Below, piece after piece: positions 11,225 through 20,418 of a stretch of 22,685 nt of DNA. The position numbers were made by a program, and so were the translations under genes. This DNA is from a virus. Every line of letters begins with the position of its first letter. Position 1 is the first letter of the stretch. The notes beneath the pieces were generated by a model. It did not search any database. It worked only from the letters and a program-made list of their open reading frames with translations, and was not told where the DNA came from. Location of the stretch: positions 1 through 22,685 of IMG/VR virus record IMGVR_UViG_3300043540_000344. One strand, 5' to 3'.

Positions 11225-11398
11225 CTATAAAAGGTCTCCTATAATTTTCTTGCGAAGTTGCTTCATAATTCCAAGTCTGGGTTGTCCACCTCTCCCCCAC
11301 CCTTTGGGCGCCATCGGTGCGCCTGTTTTTGGCATCTTGACACTTACTCTCTTTGTTGACATTTTAGGCGTCTTGACACCTGTTTTTTTCTTACGCAT
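11225..11398 (-). CDS. Very basic 57-aa mini-protein
   Basis: This short gene (57 codons plus TAG) opens MRKKKTGVKTPKMSTKR and ends IMKQLRKKIIGDLL. It has about 12 Lys and 5 Arg against one acidic residue. A central APMAPKGWGRGGQPRLG stretch is Gly/Pro-rich. The evidence that it is real is the near-ideal ribosome site (GGAGG, nine-base spacing) before ATG 11398, the tight packing (start overlaps the end of the ATP-grasp gene by eight bases, stop lies 11 bases before the next start) and the coding-like lack of stops. The charge suggests DNA or RNA binding, head-interior packing, or a small capsid-associated protein. No motif allows a firm function. Confidence 0.65.
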   Translation of the reverse strand: MRKKKTGVKTPKMSTKRVSVKMPKTGAPMAPKGWGRGGQPRLGIMKQLRKKIIGDLL

Positions 11399-12845
11399 TT
11401 ATGATTTCCTCCTTTTCTTTGCTGTTTGTAAGGCTATTGCTATTGCTTGTTTCTGGGCTTGCTTCCGTGACTTCGGGTTTGAGGCTCCGATTGTTCCCTT
11501 TCTCTCCCAGCTGTGCATTATTTCCCGAATGTTCCCTTGTATCACCTTTTTTGAACTCCCTTTCTTTAACGGCATTGATATACCCCCATTCGTAAAGTTG
11601 CTGCCATTGTTGACGCACGTTGTGTGCAGCAGACTCACCAACGTCTTTACGATACTGCACATCAGACGTTAGCACAATGTTATCAACCGTTCTGTATACT
11701 CTGCGCCTTGCTTCGTCCAGCGAAACTCCCCACGCGGTAACACACCCTATCTGACCATCTACGCCCGCAAGACAAGGTCCGCTGTCTGTCCACATAACAT
11801 CTGACAACCAAAGATGAGGAGCAGCTTCTTTTATCCACCTAATTGGTTTTACACCTTTCAAGAAAGAAGCATCTTCACCATGCGGGTATGGAGACACAGA
11901 CAGCCGAACTCCAAATGCTATGCAATCTTTTTTGACTGGGACCCTGCTGATTGTTCCTGTGGCAACACGATATAACATTTCAGACAACGGAATATTCAGC
12001 AGCTCGGTGTATGTTTGTATCGCGTCGTATCCAAACCTCGGAGTGAACTCCAAGAAATAAATCTTGTCCTTTGTGACAATTGTGTTGACATCGAAGGGGC
12101 CCACGTAACCGACCTTACGCAACAACCCCGTAAGTTTCAGATGCATCCGCTTAATCATTTCGTCCTCGTCTGTTGTCCATATGACGTTACCCATACAGCC
12201 AGTTTGGGCGCCCTTGTCTCCCTCGCCAAGGCGTTTGTATTCAATTGTATGGTTGAACGGCAGAACCCAGTCTTCTCCGTTGAACCAGCCTTCGGTTGAA
12301 ATTTCAATTCCGTCTACTACTTTCTGAACCAAGCATCCTTGGCTGAAAACTTCGGGCATAGCCTCGACAACAGATTTAAGGTATTCGTTGTCAGGAGTCT
12401 TGGATAGCAGCGTCAAAGTCACAGACTTGTTGCCAAAGGGCTTCAACGCGCAGGGATAGTCAACAGATTCCAATGTTTGTCGGACCCCTTTGGCGTTTTT
12501 ACATTCGGTGCTTTCGGGTTGCTCCACATCCATCAATTCTGCAATTTTAGCTCCGTATCCTCGGTCCAGTTCAATCATATCGGCGAACCTATGACCTCCA
12601 AGCACCACTTTTCCTCTCTTTGCCAAGCTTTCTGCAATCCTTCCGAGCCCGACTGTGGAAAACAGGCATAGGTCCGCATCTGGGTTCTGTGAGTCAGTAA
12701 CTCTTTGCGGATTTCTAATGCCCTGCCCGAGCCACTTGCATTTGTCGCTTTCAAACTTGATTTTGACATTGTTTCCTTCCATTGCAAGTCTGTGTGCAAT
12801 TTCGTATCCCTCGCCTTCTTTAGAATACATCATGATGCTTATCAT
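11391..12845 (-). CDS. PurD-like ATP-grasp ligase (484 aa)
   Basis: This is an ATP-grasp enzyme related to phosphoribosylamine-glycine ligase, which makes an amide bond by way of an acyl phosphate. Visible parts are an N-terminal substrate domain (residues 1-100), the ATP-binding lysine region YPCALKPFGNK (130-140), KRLGEGDKGAQTGCMGN (204-220, like the PurD glycine/phosphate loop), FDVNTIV (251-257) and EFTPRFG (266-272), and a PurD-type C-terminal domain (GCVTAWGVSLDEARRRVY, then VQYRKDVG). PurD normally has E-F-N-x-R-F-G; here Asn is Thr268, so metal binding or substrate may differ. I start it at ATG 12845, which overlaps the endolysin stop as ATGA; an upstream reading would overlap that gene. 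Residues after about 423 are a hydrophilic tail lying wholly over a nested gene. A phage-specific amide ligase is more likely than ordinary purine synthesis, but that is inference. Confidence 0.8.
   Translation of the reverse strand: MISIMMYSKEGEGYEIAHRLAMEGNNVKIKFESDKCKWLGQGIRNPQRVTDSQNPDADLCLFSTVGLGRIAESLAKRGKVVLGGHRFADMIELDRGYGAKIAELMDVEQPESTECKNAKGVRQTLESVDYPCALKPFGNKSVTLTLLSKTPDNEYLKSVVEAMPEVFSQGCLVQKVVDGIEISTEGWFNGEDWVLPFNHTIEYKRLGEGDKGAQTGCMGNVIWTTDEDEMIKRMHLKLTGLLRKVGYVGPFDVNTIVTKDKIYFLEFTPRFGYDAIQTYTELLNIPLSEMLYRVATGTISRVPVKKDCIAFGVRLSVSPYPHGEDASFLKGVKPIRWIKEAAPHLWLSDVMWTDSGPCLAGVDGQIGCVTAWGVSLDEARRRVYRTVDNIVLTSDVQYRKDVGESAAHNVRQQWQQLYEWGYINAVKEREFKKGDTREHSGNNAQLGEKGNNRSLKPEVTEASPETSNSNSLTNSKEKEEIINA
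11399..11575 (-). CDS. Basic 58-aa protein nested inside the ATP-grasp gene
   Basis: The protein (MPLKKGSSKKVIQGNIREIM, then HSWERKGTIGASNPKSRK, ending QKQAIAIALQTAKKRRKS) matches a small phage family I know by its MPLKKG...KQA-AIAL-KA pattern (DUF6496-like), so it is very probably real. ATG 11575 has GGGGGT seven bases upstream; longer readings lack this. The gene lies wholly in the +1 frame of the ATP-grasp 3' end (residues 424-482 of that protein), exactly beyond its recognisable domain. The helix QKQAIAIALQTAKKRRKS is likely amphipathic and basic. Its function in phages is not known to me; it is usually found near structural genes. The ribosome site of the next basic protein lies within its last codons. 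Confidence 0.75.
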   Translation of the reverse strand: MPLKKGSSKKVIQGNIREIMHSWERKGTIGASNPKSRKQAQKQAIAIALQTAKKRRKS

Positions 12846-15516: not shown

Positions 15517-15801
15517 TCAAAACTTTCGGTTGTATCCATCTTCGCAATACCAGCTATACGAGTTATATTTCTCGCATAACTCTGCAAGCTGCTTCTTGGA
15601 TGTAATCTCAACCGGTTCACCTGTTACATCTTCGGTTACAAACGGCTTAAACAGCCTCAGGTTCATTCGGTCCCATTTCCAGTCCTTCGGGCATTCCTCC
15701 GAGCATCTCGGACAAGGCTCTCTGTCTCGTATCGCGTGCGACGGTTGGAAGACCTCGAACACCAGGTTGCATTTCGGGCATCTGAACTGGTGGAGCGGCA
15801 T
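15517..15801 (-). CDS. Zinc-ribbon protein overlapping the portal gene (94 aa)
   Basis: The N-terminus MPLHQFRCPKCNLVFEVF with CPRC at 30-33 (Cys8, Cys11, Cys30, Cys33) forms a zinc ribbon like that of FmdB-type proteins. The second half (FKPFVTEDVTGEPVEITSKK, then QLAELCEKY) matches the tail found in phage zinc-ribbon proteins, where a conserved F-P-------V-S-K/R-LM region follows. ATG 15801 is chosen because CAGGAGG lies upstream with eight-base spacing; a GTG nine bases before it lies inside that ribosome site. The first 155 nt overlap the portal 3' end in the +1 frame. DNA or protein binding by the ribbon is likely, but its role in phages is not known to me. Confidence 0.75.
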   Translation of the reverse strand: MPLHQFRCPKCNLVFEVFQPSHAIRDREPCPRCSEECPKDWKWDRMNLRLFKPFVTEDVTGEPVEITSKKQLAELCEKYNSYSWYCEDGYNRKF

Positions 15802-17428
15802 TTTGTTCACCTCCTGGAATTTGTTGTGGTTGTTGCGGTGTTAAAAGTTTTATAATTGTTGGGTCAATCCATTCAAATTGTGACAGAACCAGCCTATGCA
15901 ACAGCACCTGGTCTATCATTGGGTCGTTTGCAAACATCTTTGCAAGTTGTAAGGTCATGTTATACCGAACTTGTCTGTTGACTGGTAACATAGCTTCTGG
16001 GTCTACCTTGATTGCATATTCACCGCGAACTTGTTCACCAGTAAAGGTAACCCAATACCTCATGCCGTCTTCGCCGATAACTTCAAATGTCCGTTTGCCA
16101 TCCCAGAACGTGAACACAAACTGGTTCCATTTGCGAATAACAGTTGCAAGAGCATCAGCTACTGCGTCCCGGCGTTCATCCATCCGTAAGGTTGCGGCTT
16201 GTTGCACCGCCATAATTTCGGTTGCAGTCTTGCCGTGGTAGGGAGCAATCTCGCCGAGTTGAGTCTTTGATAGGCCAAAGGTTTCTCGCATGTCGGATTC
16301 GACTTCACGCCCAAACAATGTGAGTTCCTGTGTCAGCGCCGGAGGTTGCAGCGGAATGACAGCCGCCCCGGGAGCATCGGCTTCAACTGCGATACCGGCA
16401 CCAATGTCTTCGAGGGCGTCAGACAGCAGCTTGTCGAGTTCTTCGTTGACCAAGACGCCTTTCTGATAAAGGAATTTCAGCAAGGAATATCTGCGCAAGC
16501 GGGATTGTTGAACACGAATCTCGTCGAGTTCTTTTTGTTGCGGTAACAAGGTCCAAACATCCGACAAGCCCCAACAACAAACAGGATGCATGTTAAACAC
16601 GATGAACACATAAGGCAGGCCTTCAATCTGTAGCGCATCTTTGTCTTCGAACAAGAGTTGGGTCTCGGCGAACACGTATACCTTACCTTCATCCACAGTG
16701 CGAACCTCCCAAAGCTCTACAAGTGGGTCGGAAGCAACGGAACCACTGCTGCCCGTTTCGTTGCTGACCTCGATTCGTGGTGTATAGCTGCCTCTGAGCT
16801 TCTTGGTTGCAGATTTGATATATTTGCTGTCTTCTTGCACATCCTTGAGCGGCCTAATAACTCTGTGCGCAATCCACGGGATTGAGTCAAAGTCTTCGTA
16901 GCCCCAAGGGACGACAATGTCACGAGGGTTCACGCGTAGCGCCCAAGGCATTCCGGGCTTGACAAACTCAGAGTATTCAATCTTGCGTTGTTCTTCGGTA
17001 GAAATCTGCGTCAGGGTCTCGGAATCGGGCAACACCGCATGTGCGGGGCTGTAACCAAACTCAGAGTCATATCCGAGCTTGACAACGCCTGTCCCACAAA
17101 TGTAAGCATCGAGCAACACGCGTTTCATTGTTTTCTTAAGTCCAAGTTCGCGAATCAGGTAGTTGTCAACCGACTCAACTACACGTGCAAGGTCACGGTA
17201 TTCAGGACGCAGCGGCGTTATCATGACGGTCGGGTCGCGAAGATACGTATTTGCGACCATGGTTTTGCCTAACGAGAATATTCGGTTGACCTTTAGTTCT
17301 TTGTTGGATACAGCATCAATGCCACAATACAGCTTTTGCCACGACTCCCATTTGTCAGCAAAAGCATATTTGCGCTTGAATTCTTTTCCGAGCTTGATGC
17401 GCTCCATCCACCAGTTGACATCAGACAT
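15647..17428 (-). CDS. Portal protein (593 aa)
   Basis: This is the portal dodecamer subunit, the channel for DNA packaging and ejection. The N-terminus (WWMERIKLGKEFKRKYAF, then VNRIFSLGKTMVANTYLRDP) and the following ESVDNYLIRELGLKKTMKR, YICGTGVVKLGYD and RVNPRDIVVPWG segments are typical of podovirus portals (wing). VFNMHPVCCWGLSDVW, ELDEIRVQQSRLRRYS and the clip/stem helical part (DMRETFGLSKTQLGEI, HGKTATEIMAVQQAATLRMDERR in pieces) follow, with the phrase GKTATEIMAVQQ as a well-known portal mark. The last 51 residues (Pro/Gln/Met-rich, MPEMQPGVRGLPT) are hydrophilic and overlap the zinc-ribbon gene. ATG 17428 has GGGAGG 11 bases upstream. It follows the 993-aa protein by eight bases. Confidence 0.88.
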   Translation of the reverse strand: MSDVNWWMERIKLGKEFKRKYAFADKWESWQKLYCGIDAVSNKELKVNRIFSLGKTMVANTYLRDPTVMITPLRPEYRDLARVVESVDNYLIRELGLKKTMKRVLLDAYICGTGVVKLGYDSEFGYSPAHAVLPDSETLTQISTEEQRKIEYSEFVKPGMPWALRVNPRDIVVPWGYEDFDSIPWIAHRVIRPLKDVQEDSKYIKSATKKLRGSYTPRIEVSNETGSSGSVASDPLVELWEVRTVDEGKVYVFAETQLLFEDKDALQIEGLPYVFIVFNMHPVCCWGLSDVWTLLPQQKELDEIRVQQSRLRRYSLLKFLYQKGVLVNEELDKLLSDALEDIGAGIAVEADAPGAAVIPLQPPALTQELTLFGREVESDMRETFGLSKTQLGEIAPYHGKTATEIMAVQQAATLRMDERRDAVADALATVIRKWNQFVFTFWDGKRTFEVIGEDGMRYWVTFTGEQVRGEYAIKVDPEAMLPVNRQVRYNMTLQLAKMFANDPMIDQVLLHRLVLSQFEWIDPTIIKLLTPQQPQQIPGGEQNAAPPVQMPEMQPGVRGLPTVARDTRQRALSEMLGGMPEGLEMGPNEPEAV

Positions 17429-17436
17429 AACTGTTG

Positions 17437-20418
17437 TTACCTCCCTTTCAAAATTTTCACGCGGCCTTCTGATTCAAGCAACTCTGCAAACTCACGAGGC
17501 ATCTGCACAACCTGAAAGTTTGGGCCTGTTGCAGGAACACGAACAAAAACATAATCGTGAGGTTTCAAGCCCAGTCGCTGGAGGTCGTAGGTGTATATGT
17601 CAAGCAACTTTTTAGTTTCGGGCAACTCGGCTTGTGGGTATTGAAGCCTGTGTGTAAGCGAGCTCTCTGCATGCAAAACCTTTTGTTCAGGTGAAAGCTT
17701 TTTGAACTCTTGCAAGCTCCGTTCAGTTCCAAGGTATCGCATCAAAGAGTTCAAAACATTTTTGTGAACCTCAACATAAGTATCGTCGTCGAACACGATA
17801 TACCGCGTCGGCGAACCAGCAGCTTGCCGAACTTCCTTAACGGTTTTGCCCAAAACTGTTCGGCCCGCAAGTCCTCTGCTTGTAGAGGATTCGGGCATTT
17901 TGGCAAGCAGGCTTGCTATGCGAGACAAAGGTTTGAATATAGGAGCAGCCTCAGCTTCATCGTTTGATGTTAAAGCAGCCGCACCTGCTCCGGTTGCAAC
18001 CAACACAACAGGAACACGCGACCAGCTACTGTTGTCTGCAAGCTTGAATCCAAATTTCTTGGCGAGGTCATCATACAGGCGCTTGGCCTTCGTTTCGGAA
18101 AGATGCCCTTGCCAAAGCTTGCGGACAGCGTCAGAGGATATGAGCCTGACTTCCTCGATTCCGCGTTGACGAGCTTCGTTCAAAACAGTAGCCAAGGTAT
18201 AGCTGGGCCAGTCACGAATGTATTCAAGTGTCTGTTCAATCTTTGGGTCTGGATTGTCCTTCTGATGTTTCCGCAACAGGTCTTCGAGGTCAGACTGCAG
18301 CTCCTCAATGAACCATTCGTCTTTGCCTGTTTGACGAATGCGCGCCCATCCGACAGTTGGATATCCTATATGAGTCACCGGCCAGGCGTGTGCAGGCTTA
18401 ACATATTTAGGCAGCGAACCTGGAGCAGCAAGAATCTGAATGTGTATTCGTGGGGCCTCGGGATAAGGAGACGGCTCGCCTGTCAAAGTTCCTTTGCCTA
18501 ATTCTAACACATTGTAGCGATATTTGTCTGAGGGAACAAAGTTCTCAACAAACTCGTCAATGGACTTGCCACTTTGGAAAACTTGTTTGTATAGCTCTTT
18601 GTCCGCGGCCTCAAGCTTTTGTTTCAGCGCCGGGCTTGTCGGTTCCTTTGCAAGACGACGCAGAACGTCATAGGCGGGAGGATATGCTTCTGGGAACTCA
18701 GAATATTCGGCTGAACGAAGCAGGCCGATTGGAGTAGATTCTTTTGCTGTAGAAAACCCTTCGAAAGGCATCGTAGGAACAAGCTTAAGCCTACGAGAGG
18801 CAAGCTCGTCGTTGAAGGCCTTTAAAAGTTGTTCGAAGTCTTCGCGAGTGAGAAAGCTATAAAGATTTGTCCAAGCAGTTGGCAAAGTAAAGACAGTGCT
18901 TCCATTTTTGAGGTCGAGATTCAGATGCTTCTTGAATTGGTCCATAGCAAGCCTACGAGCTTCCTGCGGGTCACGAGTTTCTACGGTCACAGAAATCTTT
19001 CCTTTTGCTCTGCCAAACGGGTCAAATCTTACCGCAAGACCTTTTTTACTTGCTTCTTGTGCTACAAGCTTTTCTATGTCCGCAACTCGTTGAGAGTTGC
19101 CCACATCAACGGTAACAAAGTTTTTTCCTGCTTCAAGTTCTTGAAGCACGTGCTTGGTAACATTTGGTTCAATGGGAGAATACACAACCGTGCCTATAGG
19201 CACAATCGTATCGGAGTCAATAGCTTCGCGAAATTTTTCATATGGGGCGAACTCAACCTTGAAGCCTCTGCTTTTGAAGATTTTGTCCCATTCGTGAATA
19301 AGCTTGTTATAAAGAGGCTCGTCAAGAAGACTTGCGGCGTTGTCGGCTTCTCGTGACAAGAAGATTTCGCGCCCAACATGTAAGTCATTGACGATTCTTT
19401 CTGCCTTGGGATAAATTCTTTCGTAAGCAAGCTTACGAGCCTCTTGCGGGTCAGTCGTGTGAACTTTCGTAGATATTCCAATGCCTTCGCGCCCGTAGTG
19501 AATGTCAGCCTCTGCAAACGTTCCACGCCTTGCTGCTTCTTTAAGAATTTCGTCTCTTACACTACCTGCATTTGTTCCTGGTGGAAGCGGACGAATTATC
19601 TTGCGCCCGCCTTGAAGAGCTTGTTCAACGAATCTTGTTAGCTCGGAAGTAGGAAAAGCTTCTGCCTCCTGTGGTTCAACCAAGCCTGTAAGAGACGCAA
19701 GACCAAGCGGAGCACCCACGCCTGCAAGTAACGATGGATAATATTTTTTGACGAGCTCGAGCAAAGGCGTCTTAGCTTCAAGAGGTCCTGCAAGGACTTT
19801 CTGAGTTCCAAGACTACCGAGGACGTCAGCAGACATCTCACGGACGAGTTCAAGAGACTTCCACGGGTCATCTATGGCACTATGAAACCAGGCCAAGCGA
19901 GACAACGGCATGTTTGGAAGCTGCCCAATTTGTTCAAGAAGAGCCGTCGGCTCAGTTATTTTGCGTAGTGTAAGTGCTGATACTAAAGGTTCGTCCCGTT
20001 GGTATTCGCCCGCATGACCGAGCTCGTGAAGGAATGCATACAAAGGAGAAGCTTCCTCGTATGTCCAAGGATGGCGTAACCATATGCCGGTCAACATACT
20101 TGGCGTGCCTGCGGTCTCGCCTTTTTCAACATGTTCAATTCCGGGTATATGCCAAGTAGAGCCATGAACGGTGGGCTTGGGTTTCCACCCCGGCAAAAAC
20201 TCGGAAGGCTCGGTTGTCAAAACCGAAAGTCTTTTGACAGCTTCGGGATTGACCTCGGTAACTGCTCGCTGCCAAGCTTCTGGTGCAACCTCGGGAAATT
20301 TGGTGCGTAAGAGATTAAGAGCTTGTTTGAGAGGAACTGCTTCACTTGTGTCAGGTGTGAGAGCTGAACCTGCGAGCCCGCCCAAGATTGAGCCTAAGAT
20401 TAAAAGTCTTGGATTCAT
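17437..20418 (-). CDS. Polyvalent-type protein with zinc metallopeptidase motif (993 aa)
   Basis: This is a modular protein of the kind called polyvalent, ejected with or acting on phage DNA in related viruses. Residues 1-20 are hydrophobic. HELGH (131-135) with REMSAD (193-198, Glu194 as third ligand) shows a gluzincin-like metallopeptidase. Hydrophobic segments at 229-247 and 801-818, like the first, are each followed by acidic-EA-P (SEAVP, EAEAFP, EAEAAP). Two related blocks (about 285-415 and 440-572) share DPQEAR-LA. WARIRQTGKDEWFIEELQSD (691-710) matches a motif of large polyvalent-associated domains. The C-terminal 165 residues are unrecognised. ATG 20418 has GAGG eight bases upstream inside a small hairpin. 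It lies between terminase and portal, unlike normal packaging order. Substrate and timing are unknown. Confidence 0.8.
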   Translation of the reverse strand: MNPRLLILGSILGGLAGSALTPDTSEAVPLKQALNLLRTKFPEVAPEAWQRAVTEVNPEAVKRLSVLTTEPSEFLPGWKPKPTVHGSTWHIPGIEHVEKGETAGTPSMLTGIWLRHPWTYEEASPLYAFLHELGHAGEYQRDEPLVSALTLRKITEPTALLEQIGQLPNMPLSRLAWFHSAIDDPWKSLELVREMSADVLGSLGTQKVLAGPLEAKTPLLELVKKYYPSLLAGVGAPLGLASLTGLVEPQEAEAFPTSELTRFVEQALQGGRKIIRPLPPGTNAGSVRDEILKEAARRGTFAEADIHYGREGIGISTKVHTTDPQEARKLAYERIYPKAERIVNDLHVGREIFLSREADNAASLLDEPLYNKLIHEWDKIFKSRGFKVEFAPYEKFREAIDSDTIVPIGTVVYSPIEPNVTKHVLQELEAGKNFVTVDVGNSQRVADIEKLVAQEASKKGLAVRFDPFGRAKGKISVTVETRDPQEARRLAMDQFKKHLNLDLKNGSTVFTLPTAWTNLYSFLTREDFEQLLKAFNDELASRRLKLVPTMPFEGFSTAKESTPIGLLRSAEYSEFPEAYPPAYDVLRRLAKEPTSPALKQKLEAADKELYKQVFQSGKSIDEFVENFVPSDKYRYNVLELGKGTLTGEPSPYPEAPRIHIQILAAPGSLPKYVKPAHAWPVTHIGYPTVGWARIRQTGKDEWFIEELQSDLEDLLRKHQKDNPDPKIEQTLEYIRDWPSYTLATVLNEARQRGIEEVRLISSDAVRKLWQGHLSETKAKRLYDDLAKKFGFKLADNSSWSRVPVVLVATGAGAAALTSNDEAEAAPIFKPLSRIASLLAKMPESSTSRGLAGRTVLGKTVKEVRQAAGSPTRYIVFDDDTYVEVHKNVLNSLMRYLGTERSLQEFKKLSPEQKVLHAESSLTHRLQYPQAELPETKKLLDIYTYDLQRLGLKPHDYVFVRVPATGPNFQVVQMPREFAELLESEGRVKILKGR
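18289..18348 (-). other. LPD-type motif in the 993-aa protein
   Basis: These codons spell WARIRQTGKDEWFIEELQSD. A GHxR/WARxR...W-IEE-QSD pattern recurs in large phage and mobile-element polyvalent proteins, as I remember it. It marks the region after the duplicated blocks and before the third hydrophobic segment. Confidence 0.6.
18703..19566 (-). repeat. Internal duplication inside the 993-aa gene
   Basis: Residues about 285-415 (nt 19174-19566) and 440-572 (nt 18703-19101) align in order: a helix with S-R-I, FGR or YGR followed by G-IS, then T-DPQEAR-LA, then a Gly-x-x-x-F strand and an IG-YS end. DNA at the DPQEAR codons (about 18950-18975 and 19430-19455) is still visibly similar, so the copies come from one ancestral block. 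Confidence 0.65.
20014..20028 (-). other. HELGH metallopeptidase active-site codons
   Basis: The codons read His-Glu-Leu-Gly-His (residues 131-135). Zinc-binding His131 and His135 and catalytic Glu132 are intact. The likely third ligand is Glu194 in REMSAD, 59 residues later. Confidence 0.75.

Follow-up and report, generated by a model that had tools for sequence, protein, structure and literature searches.

The portal gene in the DNA of the uncultivated phage analysed here (the whole stretch of 22,685 bases, hereafter the window, with its structural genes on the minus strand) ends 155 nt inside a neighbouring zinc-ribbon gene read in the +1 frame, and codon choice in the shared segment is shaped by the portal frame. 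The arrangement is probably best explained by a portal that has lost the end of its own tail and uses the second frame of the ribbon gene as a substitute, with both proteins being made, the ribbon codons tuned to the portal frame, and a sister clade having arrived at the same solution independently. Long overlaps in phages are usually put down to mutational run-ons. This gene pair allows the question of whether the second frame is selected to be asked directly, with about 140 loci, two independent origins, internal controls, and a duplication of the overlap in one relative (L152). It also points to an unstudied but required portal feature, namely a disordered tail of about 45-95 residues in which length matters more than sequence. 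In practical terms, gene callers that do not allow long overlaps would truncate one member of the pair. Our literature search found no paper on a portal/zinc-ribbon overlap.

The two proteins and their overlap

The portal gene (15647-17428, minus strand) encodes 593 amino acids and terminates with TAA at 15647-15649. In a profile search its product matched PF16510 (P22_portal) with an E value of 7.9e-17 and 61.4 bits against a cut-off of 26.1, and a PHROG search gave a match to phrog_156 (E 3.4e-20). The AlphaFold model resembles the portals of SU10, N4, VP1, T7, and P22, with a best Foldseek E value of 1.8e-17, so that a score above the cut-off and a portal fold together place the protein among the P22-like podovirus portals. 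It differs from these in its C-terminal tail, a low-complexity, disordered stretch for which the P22-type C-terminal barrel is not predicted; pLDDT is below 50 at residues 540-573 and 576-583, most of the overlapped residues 543-593 being predicted as disordered. Named phages yielded a single distant portal match (MW202803, 23%), with no ribbon at the corresponding position. Between the terminase and the portal, positions 17437-20418 encode a 993-aa protein without a PHROG match, and a protein of 728 aa at the equivalent position in a related locus (L004) looks like a shorter version of it.

The zinc-ribbon gene (15517-15801, minus strand) starts at ATG 15801, stops at 15517, and encodes 94 amino acids with two CxxC knuckles, CPKC and CPRC. 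Its scores lie above the curated cut-offs of both PF09723 (Zn_ribbon_8; E 8.5e-9, 35.7 bits against 34.4) and TIGR02605 (E 2.7e-8, 33.8 bits against 31.3, over positions 1-36 of 52), and 53 of 58 ribbon homologues match PF09723 at E 0.01. The pattern MPxYxxxCxxC...CxxC is shared with the FmdB-like phage zinc ribbons (PF09723, phrog_1076, and TIGR02605). TIGR02605 bears the name CxxC_CxxC_SSSS, in which SSSS stands for a serine-rich stretch after the ribbon. No serine run is present in the 94 residues, which carry a different, conserved C-terminal module (EHI..PI.I.SKKQLKEECKKHG) instead, and the protein is therefore called FmdB-like rather than FmdB, with a regulatory role that is putative and taken from the family name; its fixed place beside the portal gene is a further difference from the FmdB-like ribbons. 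The predicted structure, with a mean pLDDT of 85.6 and values of 89-95 over residues 1-40, consists of two beta hairpins followed by the C-terminal module, in keeping with the fold expected at first pass. Residues 1-44 can be superposed on zinc ribbons such as those of RbpA and aRF1 with Z scores of at most 5, which is weak on its own, and a structure search with the model returned no match at E <0.001. Four homologues (L158, L160, L161, and L165) have lost the paired CxxC knuckles and kept the C-terminal LEH...SKKELRDYC..SGALL module, a pattern which suggests that this part of the protein may carry the shared function. From the fixed position between the portal and scaffold genes, a rather doubtful guess would be that the ribbon assists head assembly or packaging at a late stage.

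The dual-coding overlap (15647-15801, minus strand) covers 155 nt and encodes portal residues 543-593 together with ribbon residues 1-51, the ribbon frame being +1 relative to the portal, as (17428-15801) mod 3 = 1. All four ribbon cysteines fall within it. The ribbon gene is preceded by the 9-nt Shine-Dalgarno sequence AGGAGGTGA (15807-15815, minus strand), which lies inside the portal codons CCA GGA GGT GAA, places GGAGG 8 nt from the ATG, and is the longest such match among the 19 genomes with deep overlaps described below. A ribbon start at GTG 15810 was considered and rejected because that position falls inside the Shine-Dalgarno sequence. The first-pass annotation had described a four-cysteine ribbon that begins inside the portal gene, a strong ribosome site embedded in portal coding sequence, an overlap taking in both cysteine pairs, and two proteins that are real by family, and all of these points are borne out by the gene coordinates (17428-15647 and 15801-15517) and by the family scores given above. 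Both products thus come from conserved families, as expected of a segment under dual selection.

Arrangement in related genomes

Relatives were collected by ribbon, portal, and capsid searches, and identical copies were removed. Of the related portal loci, about 200 without identical copies, 146 have a ribbon homologue next to the portal gene, and measurements were made on 143 of these 146. The usual layout is a stop-start contact, with an overlap of 1 nt in 39 of the 146 loci and of 4 nt in 14, most others lying within 60 nt; gaps of +5 and +8 also occur. Overlaps of at least 8 nt were found in 42 loci and are all in the +1 frame. Among them are 19 deep overlaps of 68-215 nt, again all +1, which belong to the window and to 18 members of one sister clade. 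Long same-strand overlaps in which an upstream gene enters the 5′ part of its downstream neighbour in phase 1 (+1), and short overlaps of 1 or 4 nt in phase 2, are the pattern that has been described and modelled previously, and the +1 bias of the long ones is explained by composition and by the retention of short phase-2 overlaps (PMC2542354, PMC3887535). The 42 overlaps conform to this expectation, and their uniform frame is accordingly not used here as evidence of selection.

In a midpoint-rooted FastTree portal tree, from which the overlapped tails were left out and which has moderate support at the inner forks, the window belongs to a clade of 22 genomes (support 100). The gaps of the other members range from -20 to +489, with no second deep overlap. 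The portals nearest to that of the window are 45-47% identical, and no second genome has the same overlap, which is thus specific to the lineage of the window. The deep overlaps of the sister clade lie in one clade of 23 genomes with a few exits, and the overlap there is old and has been maintained by selection. Inheritance of the overlap from an ancestor common to both was rejected because the clade of the window and the intervening clades show stop-start contact; most simply, the window overlap would have had a separate origin.

Two additional observations come from this collection of loci. In one relative (L047:1180-1214, compared with window 15801) the portal-frame stop is made by the ribbon cysteine codon TGT followed by A, where the window has TGC, so that termination or continuation of the portal depends on a substitution that leaves the ribbon protein unaltered. 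Another related portal-ribbon locus (L148, QMSR01000043.1) comes from a contig that binning assigned to a Thermoplasmata archaeon; the host may be archaeal, or the contig may have been misbinned.

Length of the portal tail

A conserved DPxID anchor served to align the portals, and the residues beyond it were counted as the tail. Across the 143 loci the total tail measures 45-96 aa (median 68) without a deep overlap and 49-95 aa (median 66) with one, and the two groups do not differ (P 0.998). The private tail, which precedes the ribbon start, is 24-39 aa long in the 19 deep-overlap genomes compared to 41-96 aa in the 124 others. In the window it occupies 15802-15919 (minus strand) and amounts to about 39 aa after DPxID, shorter than in all 124 genomes without a deep overlap, within a total tail of 90 aa. 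Since private length is total length minus overlap, this contrast is partly built in, and the informative part is the unchanged total. Judged from these alignments, the deep-overlap portals appear to have lost 30-40 aa of their own tail, with the remainder drawn from the second frame of the ribbon gene.

A simple extension of the portal was rejected on the same ground, as the total tail is equal in length to that of the non-overlapping relatives. It had been proposed at first pass that related portals ending before the ribbon gene would reveal such a recent extension; portals of this kind do exist in the clade of the window, but the window portal shows no extension when compared with its relatives. 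The proposal that a small gene had been placed over a tail has to be reversed, as the ribbon start is homologous everywhere and it is the portal that would have lost its own tail and now reads into an old gene. The description of the tail as dispensable is contradicted both by its total length, which stays within 45-96 aa with or without overlap, and by the conservation of the tail peptide in a genome in which it has been freed from the ribbon.

A duplicated overlap in the sister clade

That genome is L152, a member of the sister clade, in which the portal/ribbon dual-coding segment is present twice (L152:6300-6977), a natural experiment that takes the place of a dN/dS comparison among close relatives of the window. 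One copy, within the portal gene, has kept NSEIQQAMRAMRLAGGL... in the portal frame but is riddled with stops in the ribbon frame. The other is located 139 nt past the portal stop and encodes an intact ribbon, with HADISDAMRAMRLAGGL... still legible in its +1 frame. Translated in the portal frame, the two copies agree in 57% of their residues but in only 30% of their third codon positions, with 11 codons identical, 23 synonymous, and 26 replaced. The comparison of the two copies indicates that the overlap was apparently undone by duplication, one copy being left to the portal tail and the other to the ribbon. The tail peptide was kept after the sharing of DNA had ended, an observation at odds with the idea that the tail is dispensable.

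Codon choice in the overlap

In the codon test the ribbon protein was held fixed and synonymous codons were redrawn from the usage of each genome. For the window the portal frame remained open across the 155 nt in only 0.37% of draws (P 0.0037). The actual portal frame contains no F, W, Y, or C, which has a probability of 0.007 among the open draws, whereas enrichment of G/Q/P/S/N/A was not significant in the window alone (P 0.16-0.22). The rest of the ribbon gene, beyond the overlap, showed no such signal (P 0.36-0.51). When the 19 deep overlaps were combined, portal-frame stops and aromatic residues or cysteine were avoided and the composition was tail-like, with very strong signals (Fisher 8e-20 for stops and 1e-26 for composition, compared to 0.89 and 1.0 downstream of the overlap); these genomes are related, and the combined P values therefore overstate their independence and are only indicative. 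The stop and aromatic signals were absent from the third frame of the 19 deep overlaps, and composition tests on 60 ribbons without overlap were unremarkable. In a set made up of the first 49 ribbon homologues, the portal-equivalent frame meets its first stop at a median of 20 nt, and the window is alone in remaining open for 155 nt. The codon constraint is thus confined to the overlap, being strong across the sister clade and moderate in the window, and to this extent the expectation in the first-pass annotation that constraint on one protein must shape the other holds.

An alternative reading is a neutral and recent run-on. A small insertion or deletion, or the loss of a stop, near the portal end would have let the frame drift into the ribbon gene as far as the first stop there, creating a new 51-aa tail that is tolerated without function or selection. 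This reading is consistent with the uniqueness of the overlap within its clade, with purely mutational models, which expect long +1 overlaps (PMC2542354, PMC3887535), and with a run-on in the ATP-grasp gene of the same genome that is seen in no relative. Nevertheless, we consider it unlikely, because the openness of the portal frame and the avoidance of aromatics and cysteine given that openness are left unaccounted for, as is their disappearance downstream of the overlap, and because without the overlap the window tail would be about 39 aa long, shorter than that of every other genome (minimum 45).

A sequencing or assembly error is very improbable, although one base missing from the CC run before AGGAGG would restore a stop 5 nt before the ribbon start and hence a normal layout: the +2 frame reads ...NSRR* with the TGA inside the Shine-Dalgarno sequence, and gaps of +5 and +8 exist in relatives. 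Such an error would make the total tail shorter than all others, would leave the codon signals unexplained, and would sit beside 18 sister-clade genomes with the same kind of overlap. A programmed +1 frameshift joining portal and ribbon into one protein can practically be dismissed. Upstream of the ATG the ribbon frame does stay open as far back as the private tail, so that a +1 slip in that stretch would fuse the two; the ribbon is, however, equipped with a start of its own and with the strongest Shine-Dalgarno sequence of the 19-genome set, and most relatives carry it as a separate gene after the portal stop.

Proposed mechanism

In the replacement of the portal tail that we regard as probable, the end of the disordered C-terminal tail would have been lost together with the old stop, after which the portal frame would run 51 codons into the first half of the old zinc-ribbon gene in +1. 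One message would then give two proteins: ribosomes translating the portal would terminate at 15647, and others would enter at the Shine-Dalgarno sequence and ATG (15801-15815), with ribbon initiation presumably independent of portal termination. The second-frame peptide (NAAPPVQMPEMQPG...) would serve as a substitute tail of ordinary length and composition, and the ribbon codons would have been tuned so that no stop, aromatic residue, or cysteine appears in the portal frame. The sister clade would have reached the same solution separately and kept it for long.

We infer that the tail works by length and disorder. A broader proposal, for which we see about equal chances of being right or wrong, is that the tail is a length-constrained, sequence-tolerant disordered peptide which can be sourced from any downstream +1 frame, and which has been swapped at least twice, one lineage having undone the swap by duplicating the segment and specialising the copies.

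The arrangement departs in two respects from the mutational models of phase-1 overlaps (PMC2542354, PMC3887535), which need no selection and in which the upstream gene is elongated: the portal is not elongated relative to its relatives, and selection in the second frame is evident from codon choice. It resembles overprinting (PMC8227390) in that a younger, disordered sequence, the portal tail, lies over an older, folded, and conserved gene, but the product is a substitute C-terminal tail of an old protein rather than a new protein.

A second +1 overlap in the window

The first-pass annotation also noted a similar overlap in the ATP-grasp gene (11391-12845, minus strand; 484 aa; GARS_A E 3.6e-10). 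The last ~60 aa of this protein have no counterpart in relatives, whose ends correspond to about residue 422-425 of the window protein, and the tail is thus a run-on found only in the window. Wholly inside it, in the +1 frame, lies a small basic gene, MPLKKGSSKK... (11399-11575, minus strand; 58 aa; phrog_2423 E 6e-7), homologues of which are located elsewhere in related loci such as L004 and L133. The similar overlap is therefore present, at 11575-11399, but it is an extra run-on and not the replacement of an existing tail. In the codon test its openness has a P value of 0.012 and its avoidance of aromatics and cysteine given openness one of 0.007, hinting that this overlap too may be under some selection. 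In many relatives the ATP-grasp gene immediately precedes the portal gene, and it is found downstream of it in the window genome, which also has many ordinary overlaps of 1-30 nt.
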